Positions 19,797 to 34,006 of a DNA stretch of 64,000 nt are shown here, piece by piece. This stretch comes from Clostridia bacterium (GTDB lineage Bacteria; Bacillota; Clostridia; Oscillospirales; Ruminococcaceae). The stretch spans positions 1 through 64,000 of the forward strand of contig BNZN01000002.1 in the NCBI GenBank assembly GCA_026001145.1. The letters run 5' to 3'. Position 1 is the first letter of the stretch. The number at the start of each line of letters is the position of its first letter. A program made the translations under genes and the position numbers. Under the pieces are notes generated by a model, which did no database searches, was not told the DNA's origin, and saw only the letters and a list, made by a program, of their open reading frames with translations.

Positions 19797-21179
19797 ATGA
19801 GTAGCACAGAATCCAAGGGGAAACAGTTCGGGTTGTTTTCCACAATAGCTATGATAGCTGGCATAGTTATCGGTTCCGGCATTTTCTTTAAGACAGCCGA
19901 TGTTTTAAACAAAACGGGTGGCAGTGTCATGCTCGGTGTTTTGGCGTTTTGCGTAGCAGGGATAAGCATTGTGTTTGGCAGCTTGACAGTTGCAGAACTT
20001 GCAACAAGGTCAGATGGATCTGGGGGTATTATTGCCTATGCAGACACGTTTGTTGGCAAACGGTTTTCGAGTGCTGTTGGTTGGCTGAACGTTTTTATTT
20101 ATGTTCCTGCGGTTATCAGCATTGAAAGTTATGTTTGTGGAATGTTTTGCTGTCAACTGTTTGGCATCAAAGATTCGCTTACAAACAATTTTATAGTTGG
20201 AAGTGTTTGCTTTTTGTTCTTTTTCGCGATGAATCTTGTGCCTCGCTTTGGCGGCGTTTTTCAGAATGTTTCGGCAGTGCTGAAGTTCTTGCCGCTGGTC
20301 GCATTTATTATCGTTGGCATTTGGAAGGGAGATTCTTCTGCAATTCATTTTAGTGAGCTTTCCACCGCTTGCAGTTCTCTTGGATGGCTTGCAGCAGTAA
20401 GCCCAATTGCCTTTGCTTTCGAGGGTTGGCTGGTCGCCACTTCGATTTCCAGTGAAATCAAAAATCCAAAGAAAAACATTCCGTTAGCTTTTACAATTGC
20501 TCCTTTAGTGATACTTCTGACGTATGTTCTTTATTTTGTTGGAATGAGCTTCTATTTGGGGCCGCAAGAAATTTTGACCCACGGTAATGGGCATGTTCAG
20601 ATTGCTGCTGGGAAGTTTCTTGGCAAATATGGAGGCAACATCATAATGACCTTCATTATTGTGTCAGTTATGGGTGCATTAAATGGAAATATTATGGGTG
20701 CGTTGCGCTTTGTGACACCGCTTGCAGAAAAGCGTATGTTTCCCGGATCTGGTGCTTTTTTGAAAGACCGCGGGAAATTATGTGCATCAAAAGCTACTTT
20801 TGTTTTGGTTTTTGTTTTGAGTTTTGTTTTTGCTGTTGTTTCCTACTTACTTAAGTCAACCAAGACAATTGATTCTAGTTTTGATTTTACGGAATTTGCA
20901 ATTGCGTGTTGTTACTTCCTTTACATCTTTCTTTATGCGCAGGTGATAAGGCTCAAGAGAGAGGGCAAAATAAAGAGCGCTTTCCGGGGTTATGTGTGCC
21001 CCGTCATGGCAATCATAGGGGCAATGGTAATGGTTTCGGGTGGTGTCATGAGAGGGCTAGAGTTTAGGCTTCCTTTTGGCTGCTTTATGGCTTTTGCTTT
21101 GGTTATTATTGTTACCGGCGCTATTTATGGCGGCAAAGCATTGGACAAAGAGGGAGTGACCCAGAATGGCAGCAAGTAA
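19797..21179 (+). CDS. APC-family amino acid permease
   Basis: About 460 residues with some 12 membrane helices. The first helix carries the APC hallmark IAGIVIGSGIFF, where the unwound GSG segment contacts substrate; FEGWLVATSISSEIKNPKKNIP matches the family helix-6 region. It probably imports an amino acid or exchanges amino acids across the membrane; the substrate cannot be assigned. The ATG at 19797 fits the start of homologues; a longer in-frame reading back to 19635 would cross the promoter. yajC overlaps its last 14 bases. Confidence 0.87.
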   Translation: MSSTESKGKQFGLFSTIAMIAGIVIGSGIFFKTADVLNKTGGSVMLGVLAFCVAGISIVFGSLTVAELATRSDGSGGIIAYADTFVGKRFSSAVGWLNVFIYVPAVISIESYVCGMFCCQLFGIKDSLTNNFIVGSVCFLFFFAMNLVPRFGGVFQNVSAVLKFLPLVAFIIVGIWKGDSSAIHFSELSTACSSLGWLAAVSPIAFAFEGWLVATSISSEIKNPKKNIPLAFTIAPLVILLTYVLYFVGMSFYLGPQEILTHGNGHVQIAAGKFLGKYGGNIIMTFIIVSVMGALNGNIMGALRFVTPLAEKRMFPGSGAFLKDRGKLCASKATFVLVFVLSFVFAVVSYLLKSTKTIDSSFDFTEFAIACCYFLYIFLYAQVIRLKREGKIKSAFRGYVCPVMAIIGAMVMVSGGVMRGLEFRLPFGCFMAFALVIIVTGAIYGGKALDKEGVTQNGSK

Positions 21180-21591
21180 CCCAGCAGAAGCTACGCAGAC
21201 AACGCAGACGAATTCATCACAGAGTCAACCAGCGGCGCCGTCTCTTCAAACTATGCTTTTTGGCGGCCCCAATGGTATTATGCTCATTGCACTTTTGTTT
21301 GGTCTTGTGTTTGTTTGGTTCTTCGGTGGGAAGAAGCAGAAAAAGCGCGAGCAAGAAGAAATTGCAATTCGCAAAAATGTTGAAATTGGCGATGAACTTA
21401 CTACCACTGGTGGAATAGTGGGGATTGTTGTGGCAGTCAAAGATGACGTGTTTACACTTGAAACTGGCAGCGATCGCAGCAAATTGCGAATTGAAAAATG
21501 GGCAATCAAATCAAACGTCACTGCTGCGGCAAGAAGAGCAAATCAAAAAGAAATCGAAAAGAACGAACGGAAAGGAAGGCTTGCGAAATGA
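21166..21591 (+). CDS. yajC: Preprotein translocase subunit YajC
   Basis: A 141-residue single-pass membrane protein that accompanies SecDF. A 30-residue Gln/Ser/Thr-rich N-terminus precedes the membrane helix (GIMLIALLFGLVFVWFF) and the conserved GDELTTTGGIVGIVV domain, ending in a basic tail. It overlaps the permease gene upstream and its stop overlaps the scfA start (ATGA), an arrangement that favours translational coupling. YajC next to the SCIFF precursor is typical of Clostridia. Confidence 0.95.
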   Translation: MAASNPAEATQTTQTNSSQSQPAAPSLQTMLFGGPNGIMLIALLFGLVFVWFFGGKKQKKREQEEIAIRKNVEIGDELTTTGGIVGIVVAVKDDVFTLETGSDRSKLRIEKWAIKSNVTAAARRANQKEIEKNERKGRLAK

Positions 21592-21743
21592 CGCATATTA
21601 AGACTTTAATAAATAGCACAATTAATAATTGCGATAAGACTGGCTGTGGAGAGTGTCACCTTTCTTGCCAGACTGCCAGCAAGACTTCCAACGCAGTTCC
21701 AAACCAAAAATGCGAAAATGCAGAAGCGCAAAGTGGCAGATAG
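21588..21743 (+). CDS. scfA: SCIFF-type RiPP precursor peptide, altered
   Basis: A 51-residue peptide beginning MTHIKTLINSTINNC, clearly a SCIFF (six cysteines in forty-five residues) precursor by its start, CGEC motif and NQKCEN end, and by its place directly after yajC. Cysteines are at 15, 20, 23, 27 and 42. In ordinary SCIFF peptides the central block reads CKTSCTV; here it is SKTSNAV at residues 31-37. Two of the six canonical cysteines are thus Ser31 and Asn35, and the acceptor threonine is Ala36; Cys15 is extra. The usual Cys-to-Thr thioether link therefore cannot form at that site. The maturase gene is at 32630. Confidence 0.85.
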   Translation: MTHIKTLINSTINNCDKTGCGECHLSCQTASKTSNAVPNQKCENAEAQSGR

Positions 21744-31068: not shown

Positions 31069-32604
31069 ATGGATTATGGTTGGCTTTCGATAGTTCCCCC
31101 AATGGTCGCAATGTTGCTGGTTTTGATAACGAAAGAGGTTTTGTTTTCGTTATTCATGGGGGTTCTTTCTGGTGCTTTGATTTATGAGAAGTGGAATTTA
31201 GTGTACGGCTTAAGGACAACATTTGAGGCAATTACACGGGGCATGGCCGACATGCAACATGTAGAGATTTTGGTGTTTTTAGGCCTACTTGGTGCGTTAG
31301 TTGTGATTCTCACTGTTGCAGGAGGAGCACAGGCTTATGGAGATTGGGCAGTCAAAAGGATTAAAACAAAAAGACAATCGCAACTTATGACTTGTTTCTG
31401 TGGGCTTCTGTTCTGCATCGACGATTTTTTTCACTTTTTGGCCGCAAGTGTCATTATGAAACCCGTGATGGAAAGAAACAAGGTTTCGTCAGAAAAGTTT
31501 GCGTATCTGCTGGATTCAACCGCGGCAACAACTTCAGTAATTGCACCAATTTCCGGTTGGGCGGCGGTGATTGTCTCGCTTTTGACGAAAAGTAATGTAG
31601 AAAGTCCAATGGGTGTTTTCATAAAGGGGATACCGTTTAACCTTTATGCGATTCTAACGATCTTGACGGTATTTTTCTTTTCGGTTAGTAAGTTCGAGTT
31701 AGGCGGGATGGCTGCTGCGGAAAAAAGAGCAGAGAGAAAAAGTGTGGTGGCCGAGAGAACAGACACGGCCGCTGAAGAAGTGGAAGGGCTTGCGATAAAC
31801 AAAAATGGTAAAATTATATACATGATTCTGCCGATTTGTGTTCTTGTTTTCGGTTCGGTCCTATGGATATTGGGAACCGGTGAATATTTCACAAGCTCAA
31901 CTTCATTACTAACAGCCATAGGAAAAGCCGAGATGGGAGAATCGCTCATTGTAGGGAGTTTTTTTGCCATTGTGGCGGCGCTCTGCCTTGTTGTTCCAAC
32001 AAAGGTCGTTAGTCTTAAAATTTTTATGGAAAGCTTCGTTGCTGGAGTAAAAACAATGATACCGGCTATCTTAATTTTGATTTTGGCATGGGCAATCGGG
32101 GATATCTGTGGGCAAGAACATCTTAACACAGGGTCATTCGTTAAAGAGGTTTTAAGTGCTTCCATTTCTGAGCACCTCTTCCCCATCATTATGTTTGTCG
32201 TGTCATGTTTCCTCTCTTTTGCCACGGGAACCTCGTGGGGTACCTTTGGCATATTCATTCCGATTGCCGCCGATTTGTGCAATGGCTTGTCGGACAATAT
32301 TTTGGTAATCTCGGTTGCAGCAACACTTGCGGGTGCAGTGTTCGGAGATCACGTTTCCCCTATTTCGGGAACAACAGTTATGGCGTCAACAGGAGCTGGT
32401 TGCGACCACCTTAAGCACGTCAGTACGCAAATGCCCTATGCTCTACCGGTAGCTTTTGCCTCCGCAATAGGATTTTTGGTTGCCGGTTTTTGGGGGAATA
32501 TCTTTGTGGTGCTCGGTGTGAGTTTGGTTGTGCTGGTTGGTTCGATTTATGCGGTTAAAATAATGCTTAAAAGCAAAGAAAAGCTGGAACAGTCGTATGA
32601 GTAA
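31069..32604 (+). CDS. NhaC-type Na+/H+ antiporter family protein
   Basis: A 511-residue membrane protein with about 11-12 helices. Family motifs include CIDDFFHFLAAS, STAATTSVIAPISGWAAV in the first half and SFATGTSWGTFGI, GAVFGDHVSPISGTTVMAS in the second, which form the ion-binding core of the NhaC group. It likely exchanges Na+ for H+, possibly together with an organic acid. A charged loop near residues 210-240 links the two halves. It is followed by scfB. Confidence 0.85.
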   Translation: MDYGWLSIVPPMVAMLLVLITKEVLFSLFMGVLSGALIYEKWNLVYGLRTTFEAITRGMADMQHVEILVFLGLLGALVVILTVAGGAQAYGDWAVKRIKTKRQSQLMTCFCGLLFCIDDFFHFLAASVIMKPVMERNKVSSEKFAYLLDSTAATTSVIAPISGWAAVIVSLLTKSNVESPMGVFIKGIPFNLYAILTILTVFFFSVSKFELGGMAAAEKRAERKSVVAERTDTAAEEVEGLAINKNGKIIYMILPICVLVFGSVLWILGTGEYFTSSTSLLTAIGKAEMGESLIVGSFFAIVAALCLVVPTKVVSLKIFMESFVAGVKTMIPAILILILAWAIGDICGQEHLNTGSFVKEVLSASISEHLFPIIMFVVSCFLSFATGTSWGTFGIFIPIAADLCNGLSDNILVISVAATLAGAVFGDHVSPISGTTVMASTGAGCDHLKHVSTQMPYALPVAFASAIGFLVAGFWGNIFVVLGVSLVVLVGSIYAVKIMLKSKEKLEQSYE

Positions 32605-32629
32605 TTCGCATAAATGAGGGGAGTCAGTG

Positions 32630-34006
32630 ATGCATAAATATTATTTACACGGATTTCATGTCGTAGTGGATCCTAGCAGTGGCAGCGTTCATCTGGTTGA
32701 TAAGTTGGTGTTTGATCTCCTGGATTACGTTAAAGGGCCGCTTTCTGAAGAGCTACCTAACGAACTGCTTTTCTGTCAGGATTATGATCTTAAAGATATA
32801 GAAGAAGCTTATGGTGAAATTTATAAACTTTACAAAAACAAGTTGTTGTTTTCGGAACCAAGAAAACCAAATGTTAGCTACATAGTCGGACATAAAATTC
32901 CGATCAAAGCTGCATGTTTGCATATATCGCATGATTGTAGTTTAAGGTGCAGATATTGTTTTGCAGGAACAGGTGCTTTTGGCGGCAAGAGGATGAATAT
33001 GAGCCTGGATGTTGGCAAAAAGGCGATAGATTTCTTGATGAAAAGGTCACTTTCTCGCAAAAACATCGAGGTAGATTTCTTTGGCGGGGAACCACTTTTG
33101 AATTTTGATGTGGTTAAAGGGGTGGTCAGTTATGCCAGGGAGCAAGAAAAGAAGACAAACAAAAAATTTCGGTTTACTCTGACAACAAATGGAATTGGTT
33201 TGGACGATGAGAAAATAGAGTACCTTAATCAGGAAATGGCAATTGTTGCGCTTTCAATTGATGGGCGTAAGGCAACAAATGATCGAATGCGTGTTCACAC
33301 GGATGGAACAGGTTGTTATGACGAGGTTTTGCCAAAGTTCAAAGATTTAGTTGCAAAAAGAGGTGGCAAAAATTATTACGTAAGAGGAACCTTCACAAGG
33401 ATGAACCTAGATTTCACAAATGATATCCTGAACCTTGCAGATGAAGGATTTAAGGAAATCTCGCTGGAGCCAGTTGTTGCAGATGAAGCTTCCCCTTATT
33501 CAATAACGAGAAAAGAATTGCCGCAGGTTCTTAAAGAATATGAAAAGTTGGCCGTGGCGATAACTAACAAAGAAAAACAAAAGCAAGGATTCAACTTTTA
33601 TCACTTTTCTGTTATAGGGAAGAATTCACCGTGCATGTCGAAACGGGTTAAAGGTTGCGGTGCCGGAGCTGAATATGTTGCAATAACTCCAGATGCCGAC
33701 ATTTATCCGTGCCATCAGCTTGTTGGGATGAAAGAATATATTATGGGGAATGTGCTGGAAGGAATGGTTGATGTCGGCAAACAAGCACAATTTGCGAACA
33801 TCAGTGTCAGTTCCAAGAAAAAGTGTGCCAATTGTTGGGCAAAGCTTTATTGCAGTGGCGGATGTAATGCGAACAATGTTAAATTTGGGTATGATTTCTC
33901 GAAGCCACACGAAATAAGCTGCGAGATCCAAAAAAAGAGGTTGGAGTGCACCTTTGTGATTGAAGCAGCACAGGAGATGTTGGGGCAAAATTCCCTCTCG
34001 ACTTAG
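32630..34006 (+). CDS. scfB: Radical SAM SCIFF maturase
   Basis: A 458-residue radical SAM/SPASM enzyme that forms Cys-to-Thr thioether bonds in SCIFF peptides. An N-terminal peptide-recognition domain covers about residues 1-85. The radical SAM motif is C103-C107-C110 (CSLRCRYC). The SPASM domain holds the expected set: CGAGAEYVAITPDADIYPC, CANCWAKLYCSGGC and a final Cys pair for two auxiliary clusters. No key residue is missing. Its substrate gene scfA is 11 kb upstream. GAGGGGAGTCA precedes the ATG; a GTG one codon before is also in frame. Confidence 0.93.
   Translation: MHKYYLHGFHVVVDPSSGSVHLVDKLVFDLLDYVKGPLSEELPNELLFCQDYDLKDIEEAYGEIYKLYKNKLLFSEPRKPNVSYIVGHKIPIKAACLHISHDCSLRCRYCFAGTGAFGGKRMNMSLDVGKKAIDFLMKRSLSRKNIEVDFFGGEPLLNFDVVKGVVSYAREQEKKTNKKFRFTLTTNGIGLDDEKIEYLNQEMAIVALSIDGRKATNDRMRVHTDGTGCYDEVLPKFKDLVAKRGGKNYYVRGTFTRMNLDFTNDILNLADEGFKEISLEPVVADEASPYSITRKELPQVLKEYEKLAVAITNKEKQKQGFNFYHFSVIGKNSPCMSKRVKGCGAGAEYVAITPDADIYPCHQLVGMKEYIMGNVLEGMVDVGKQAQFANISVSSKKKCANCWAKLYCSGGCNANNVKFGYDFSKPHEISCEIQKKRLECTFVIEAAQEMLGQNSLST

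Follow-up and report, generated by a model that had tools for sequence, protein, structure and literature searches.

A selected SCIFF-family precursor lacking the mapped sulfur donor Cys32, with a conserved ScfB maturase, in a genome-reduced clostridial genus

SCIFF, widespread in Clostridia as described, is a small bacterial peptide that is normally made into a ring by a partner enzyme, with Cys32 giving the sulfur. The window analysed here, a 64,000-nucleotide stretch of a draft clostridial genome, encodes a SCIFF-like peptide with a serine at the position of this cysteine as well as a SCIFF maturase, which raises the question of what the pair can still make. The features concerned are as follows.

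21166..21591, + strand: yajC, with a 4-base overlap with the scfA start (profile models); the order yajC, then scfA also occurs in three of the four other relatives examined over longer stretches
21588..21743, + strand: scfA, SCIFF-family precursor of 51 aa (ORF and Pfam model)
21630..21632, + strand: codon of the extra cysteine, Cys15
21666..21674, + strand: C27-Q28-T29, a candidate relocated crosslink, with a Cys-x-Thr arising from S30T (canonical numbering)
21678..21698, + strand: SKTSNAV block, residues 31-37, with donor Cys32, Cys36 and Thr37 replaced and Thr34 (window T33) kept
31069..32604, + strand: NhaC-like Na+/H+ antiporter, the gene before the relocated scfB in the window genome and two congeners
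32630..34006, + strand: scfB, radical SAM/SPASM SCIFF maturase of 458 aa (profile models); an alternative GTG start three bases upstream is possible
32936..32959, + strand: ScfB CxxxCxxC, Cys103/107/110, of the radical SAM cluster (ScfB alignment)
33632..33922, + strand: ScfB Cys335 and SPASM cysteines 343, 361, 399, 402, 408, 412 and 431, all kept (ScfB alignment)

The precursor peptide and its maturase

The window ScfA reads MTHIKTLINSTINNCDKTGCGECHLSCQTASKTSNAVPNQKCENAEAQSGR, with frame, strand and coordinates in agreement with the original prediction. Alignments with relatives showed that it is one residue shorter between Cys15 and C20 of the CGEC motif, so that window residues 31-37 correspond to canonical residues 32-38 (CteA numbering), with S31 equivalent to C32, T33 to T34, N35 to C36 and A36 to T37. 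Relatives read SCQSACKTSCTVANQKC. The original prediction of SKTSNAV in place of CKTSCTV, together with an extra Cys15, was borne out by the ORF translation and the alignments; among the Cys32-bearing relatives seen, the block is CKTSC followed by T, G, S or A and then V or I. Its statement that the thioether-forming residues were lost applies to donor Cys32 and acceptor Thr37 but not to the second published acceptor, Thr34, which is retained. This retention, and the replacement of Ser30 by Thr29 that creates a new C27-Q-T29, were not mentioned in the original prediction.

Family models and sequence hallmarks placed the peptide at the edge of the SCIFF family. It scored 49.2 bits with the Pfam SCIFF model PF13165 (cut-off 27) and 47.3 bits with the NCBI equivalog TIGR03973, narrowly below the cut-off of 50. 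SCIFF peptides have six cysteines in about 45 residues, whereas the window peptide has five (C15, C20, C23, C27 and C42), Cys32 and Cys36 being gone and Cys15 added; in place of a Cys32 donor with a Thr34 or Thr37 acceptor it has Ser at 32, Thr at 34 and Ala at 37, and its gene lies 10.9 kb from scfB rather than adjoining it. The canonical leader residues H3, K5 and L7, four core cysteines, and K33, T34 and S35 of the block are all kept. Because the tested parts are SCIFF-like except for the bond residues, cysteine count, equivalog score and gene adjacency, we call the peptide a SCIFF-family variant and not a standard SCIFF.

The maturase, predicted to be intact, also looks intact in our comparisons. 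Window ScfB scored 607 bits with TIGR03974 (cut-off 425) and aligned with CteB (PDB 5wgg) over residues 1-449 (E 3e-165). The CxxxCxxC motif and the seven SPASM cysteines were found in all four ScfBs of the genus, from the window genome (G000), its sister G001, G002 and G003, which are the four genomes of the genus in our collection. When these four were compared with the remainder of a 121-row alignment, each of the 13 family-common cysteine columns (96, 103, 107, 110, 335, 343, 361, 399, 402, 408, 412, 431 and 440) held Cys in all of them. Window ScfB matched 85 of 92 columns conserved at 95% or more in the 113 rows that exclude the genus and the SKTSCS group. Changes shared by all four members were N104 to S or D, L330 to G or H, and G333 to S or A; three of them also have A for G356, and only the window genome and G001 have L for F364. 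Residues 330 and 333, changed in the window by the genus-specific L330G and G333S, sit immediately before Cys335, in the stretch entering the SPASM domain, and may shape the substrate-sulfur binding site.

The precursor and maturase families are those of CteA/CteB (thermocellin, Clostridium thermocellum) and Tte1186a/Tte1186 (Caldanaerobacter). The window peptide keeps the leader type, CGxC...C core and C-terminal Cys of these canonical SCIFFs but, unlike CteA and Tte1186a, lacks Cys32, Cys36 and Thr37. A further likeness, by enzyme family, is to PapA/PapB (freyrasin) and the NxxcA ranthipeptides, whose radical SAM/SPASM enzymes make non-alpha thioethers according to the accessible text of PMC8326336. 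The bonds in those systems are Cys-to-Asp or Cys-to-Asn, unlike in SCIFF, and window ScfB scored 268 bits with the PapB model, below its cut-off of 340.

Reported bonds and natural variants of the crosslink block

Two groups of publications name different Thr residues as the crosslinked one, and natural variants offer an independent line of evidence. In the accessible text of the reviews PMC8326336 and PMC8172795, a Cys32-Thr37 bond is reported in vitro for Tte1186a and CteA and, for CteA produced in E. coli, a Cys32-Thr34 bond via the gamma carbon, the discrepancy being left open. Since donor Cys32 is absent, neither reported bond is possible in the window peptide. Our census comprised 138 distinct genomic SCIFF sequences, which are the best scorers of several searches plus 30 low scorers and not a random draw, with tandem precursors counted twice; its search pattern required C24, N/T40, C43, C/A/S at 21 and at least 9 of 13 consensus residues, and placed no requirement on positions 30, 32, 34, 36 and 37. 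The states at 32/34/36/37 were C/T/C/T in 91 sequences, C/T/C/G in 36, S/T/C/S in seven and C/T/C/A in one, with three singletons: the window (S/T/N/A), G001 (S/T/S/A) and G002 (A/T/C/S). Thr34 and Cys28 were thus present in 138/138, Cys36 in 136/138, Cys32 in 128/138 and Thr37 in 91/138.

Among the 47 sequences without Thr37, 37 have Cys32, whereas Cys32 without Thr34 occurs in none, which favors Thr34 as the general acceptor: judged from these variants, Thr37 cannot hold that role and Thr34 can. The invariance of Thr34 may also have other causes, for example structural ones. An early idea, reading the bond from Cys32-Thr37 covariation in a biased protein sample, was dropped, as 36 CKTSCG peptides and one CKTSCA peptide keep Cys32 without Thr37.

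The variation also showed where the window peptide stands apart. Cys32 was absent from ten of the 138 census sequences, all with Thr34, and Cys36 only from the window genome and its sister, a pattern that is more than chance. A class-wide draw contained a SCIFF in 331 of 392 genomes; in 29 of 30 low scorers chosen by eye from it the block reads ACKTSC (including L199, cut by a contig end), and the other, L200, gave no readable peptide, indicating that the distant SCIFFs examined vary outside the block while the window peptide varies inside it. A profile of the doubly altered peptides matched 292 of the 394 genomes of an order-wide draw, and among the best 29 new loci the full alteration was found in the window alone, the others being canonical (24), SKTSCS (three) or CKTSCG (one). 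A separate pattern search for Cys32-less blocks matched nine of 394 genomes, in each case by chance, and missed the window because its code for Ser lacked the AGY codons.

Further Cys32-less groups came from protein searches, in which 120 of 6899 homologues were listed by likeness to Cys32-less forms, so that frequencies among them are biased. SASKTSCSV was the most frequent among the matches listed, along with SASKTSCG/SSG tandem precursors, SAVKTSSAV with a conserved Cys15, SASKTSSSV and SASKTSNSV. The SASKTSCSV peptides (e.g. G010, G113, G167 and G730, in records named Mogibacterium, Anaerovoracaceae and Lachnospirales) resemble the window's in lacking Cys32 and keeping Thr34, and ScfB is intact in all four of their genomes that were inspected. 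They differ in keeping Cys36, in having Ser37, in an scfB no more than 1.5 kb from scfA, and in ScfBs that form a separate group together with the CKTSCG type. The SAVKTSSAV peptides (P0014, P0019, P0150, P0158, P0164 and P0212) likewise lack Cys32, Cys36 and Thr37 and have Thr34 and Cys15, but carry Val rather than Ser at 32, Ser30 and another leader. P0088 and P0104, with SCQTASKVDNTV (SASKVDNTV), were the only peptides without Thr34 among the matches listed; they keep Thr37 and have gained Thr30.

A quick maximum-likelihood tree of 121 ScfBs placed the genus in one clade (support 100) within a group of support 99, whose other members of known state are canonical. Four SKTSCS rows grouped together (support 82) inside a separate clade of 36 rows (support 100) with 32 CKTSCG rows. 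With Cys32 taken as ancestral, the tree implies at least two losses, and on this sequence evidence a Cys32-less SCIFF is a recurrent state that is not unique to the genus. The 36-row clade (e.g. L035-L043 and L141-L170), with its CKTSCG and SKTSCS cassettes, spans many families including the window's own, and this mixture suggests horizontal spread of scfA-scfB. According to a remark in the accessible text of PMC5300114, every clear homologue of ScfA seems to be equivalent in function, with which the donor-less lineages fit poorly. Among the open-licence matches listed, titles and abstract openings contained no discussion of Cys32-less SCIFFs; the main primary papers fell outside that scope. 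In C. beijerinckii, disruption of the genes for the precursor and the radical SAM enzyme is described, in the accessible text of PMC8102284, a review on clostridial sporulation, as lowering sporulation genes and raising the agr locus.

Two other kinds of variant were seen. Tandem precursors of about 87-94 aa carry two leader-plus-core copies per frame (P0122-P0131, L182 in G524 and L185 in G705), several with Cys32 missing from both halves. L179, L181 and L184 (G571, G484 and G624) have CKECANSC for CGECQTSC in the first core half, with an unaltered crosslink block.

Candidate donors and the role of the maturase

We propose, giving the idea an even chance, that the window scfA is a working, selected SCIFF-family precursor whose mapped donor was lost in a genome-reduced genus, and that ScfB continues to act on it, drawing the sulfur from a different cysteine. 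ScfB would bind the ScfA leader through its RRE domain and make a 5'-deoxyadenosyl radical, which would activate a Thr of ScfA, the sulfur coming from a cysteine other than Cys32. The donor of such a thioether must be C15, C20, C23, C27 or C42. The leading candidate would be window Cys27 (canonical Cys28), favored on two grounds: every census sequence has it, and with S30T the spacing within C27-Q-T29 equals that within Cys32-Lys-Thr34. As putative acceptor, Thr29 would bring back the C-x-T spacing reported for Cys32-Thr34 in E. coli; Thr33 (canonical Thr34), which is still present, is an alternative candidate, and Cys15 a second candidate donor. In the accessible text of PMC6231123 and PMC8326336, the Aux I cluster of CteB has an open site that binds substrate Cys21, which is not the donor, so that this site accepts more than Cys32.

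Thr30 was found in none of 247 Cys32-bearing but in four of 91 Cys32-less unique peptides, counted with a script that admitted only Ser or Thr there; in the census, where position 30 was unconstrained, Ser occurred in 136/138 and Thr in 2/138. The four Thr30 peptides fall into two lineages, one being the species group of the window and the other P0088, in which Thr34 is lost too. As G002 and the SASKTSCSV group have neither Cys32 nor Thr30, C27-T29 is not a general solution, and as the SASKTSCSV ScfBs have the consensus at L330 and G333, loss of Cys32 alone does not force enzyme changes. More broadly, and with slightly less than even confidence, we suggest that SCIFF could combine a fixed acceptor, Thr34, with a movable donor. 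On at least two occasions a lineage would have given up Cys32 while under selection and either rebuilt the bond from a different conserved cysteine or done without it, and the conserved role would not rest on the mapped thioether.

A possible but distinctly less probable explanation is that the function of the peptide never needed the mapped thioether: C21, C24, C28 and C43 would be the working part, perhaps binding a metal or serving in redox chemistry, the crosslink would be accessory, and in Cys32-less lineages ScfB would modify the peptide differently or just bind it. These four cysteines are present in all 138 census sequences, although the search pattern itself required C24, C43, C/A/S at 21 and at least nine of 13 consensus residues, and the repeated losses of Cys32 in the ScfB tree left the remainder of the peptide in place. 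However, ScfB is strongly selected and has all of its cluster cysteines, which would be surprising in a protein that does no more than bind the peptide, and K33, T34 and S35 of the block are retained too.

It is unlikely, in our view, that the genus ScfB now acts mainly on another substrate, with ScfA as a left-over partner, but the gene order of the genus bears on this idea. The distance between scfA and scfB is at most 400 bases in 41 of 42 other relatives having both genes (1.6 kb in the remaining one, G024), compared to 10.9 kb in the window, 11.8 kb in G001 and 172 kb in G002. In relatives L203, L204 and L202, yajC lies 0.5, 0.5 and 2.3 kb upstream of scfA and scfB follows scfA immediately, while a fourth, L201, has scfA-scfB only. 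In the window genome, G001 and G002, yajC-scfA is unmoved and scfB instead lies behind the NhaC-like antiporter, an arrangement (window 31069-34006, antiporter then closely scfB) not seen in G003, where the contig covers 1,050 bases upstream of scfB; we know of no tie between this antiporter and SCIFF. The separation of the genes would fit a weakened functional tie, a point against our preferred reading. The relocation beside the antiporter in three of four genomes, the genus's own changes adjoining Cys335, and the existence of an NCBI model for ScfB-related orphan maturases (NF040492, with which window ScfB scored 519 bits against a cut-off of 855) all speak for another substrate. Against it, scfA is about as constrained as scfB, a second SCIFF was not found in the window's own genome or in congeners G001 and G002, and there is little space for a peptide gene beside scfB, with 25 bases upstream and 182 downstream to the next long ORF.

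Selection and loss of the donor across the genus

Our preferred reading, a moved donor, presupposes that the altered precursor is still in use, and comparison of the window genome with G001 supported this. For scfA, dN was 0.099 and dS 1.009 (dN/dS about 0.10, Nei-Gojobori), and for scfB dN was 0.074 and dS 1.087 (dN/dS about 0.07), values that are evidence of function, not of crosslinking; other genome pairs were mostly near or past synonymous saturation. In rounded counts, scfA had 18 changes at 32 synonymous sites versus 11 at 121 non-synonymous sites (Fisher p 4e-8). Because both genomes already lack Cys32, Cys36 and Thr37, the selection measured acts on the altered peptide. Both genes also persist in near-complete genomes of just 0.8 Mb (G001, 94% complete) and 0.7 Mb (G002, 97%). 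Since the sulfur-donor residue was lost while both genes stay under selection, the known Cys32 bond, as far as these comparisons of sequence reach, cannot be what keeps the scfA/scfB pair alive in the genus. Donor-less lineages with an intact enzyme are natural mutants for studying the activity of ScfB and the requirements of the peptide.

These results do not support the suggestion that the precursor is the first of the two to lose its function, and we consider early decay in a genome-reducing symbiont improbable. The genomes are small (0.7-0.9 Mb), the scfA-scfB neighborhood is disrupted, and G003 has ScfB but no scfA match; yajC was also unmatched in G003, which is 89% complete, so that the region may be absent and nothing on scfA loss follows from it. 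Purifying selection after the loss argues against decay, as do 27 columns invariant across the four ScfAs (window, G001, G002 and protein record P0002), the open reading frames in G000, G001 and G002, and the higher conservation of scfA than of the neighboring yajC between G000 and G001 (84% versus 70%).

That the observation stems from faulty sequencing or assembly, or that a canonical copy was missed, is highly improbable, although the window genome (a draft, 68% complete in 78 contigs) leaves room for a further copy. Cys32 loss recurs in two congener genomes, which carry synonymous changes of their own, and in P0002, and a second SCIFF was not found in the window's own genome, nor in G001 or G002, which have one each. 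Both outcomes had been named in the original prediction as ones that would overturn it. The search for a second canonical scfA covered the window's own genome and 61 genomes including the congeners, and none was found in the genus. A Treponema match (L034) was dismissed as chance by its translation.

A lineage-wide SKTSNAV block, suggested beforehand as support for a new bond pattern, was found in part, in that the loss is common to the lineage but the block is variable. It reads SKTSNAV in the window, SKTSSAV in G001 and P0002, and AKTSCSV in G002.

The extra Cys15 is present in all three ScfAs of the genus. Among unique peptides it was found in 11 of 19 without Cys32 and Cys36 versus eight of 319 others, where two of the eight are the G002 peptide counted twice and six of the 19 are tandem-precursor halves without Cys15. 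A tail Cys was present in four of eight genomic peptides without Cys32 but with Cys36 versus two of 137, whereas 57 of 69 protein-record peptides of this type simply have five cysteines. General cysteine compensation stays a hint, since the query profiles carried Cys15 themselves. P0005 combines the leader type of the genus, and its Cys15, with a canonical block, which suggests from sequence that Cys15 probably arose before Cys32 was lost.
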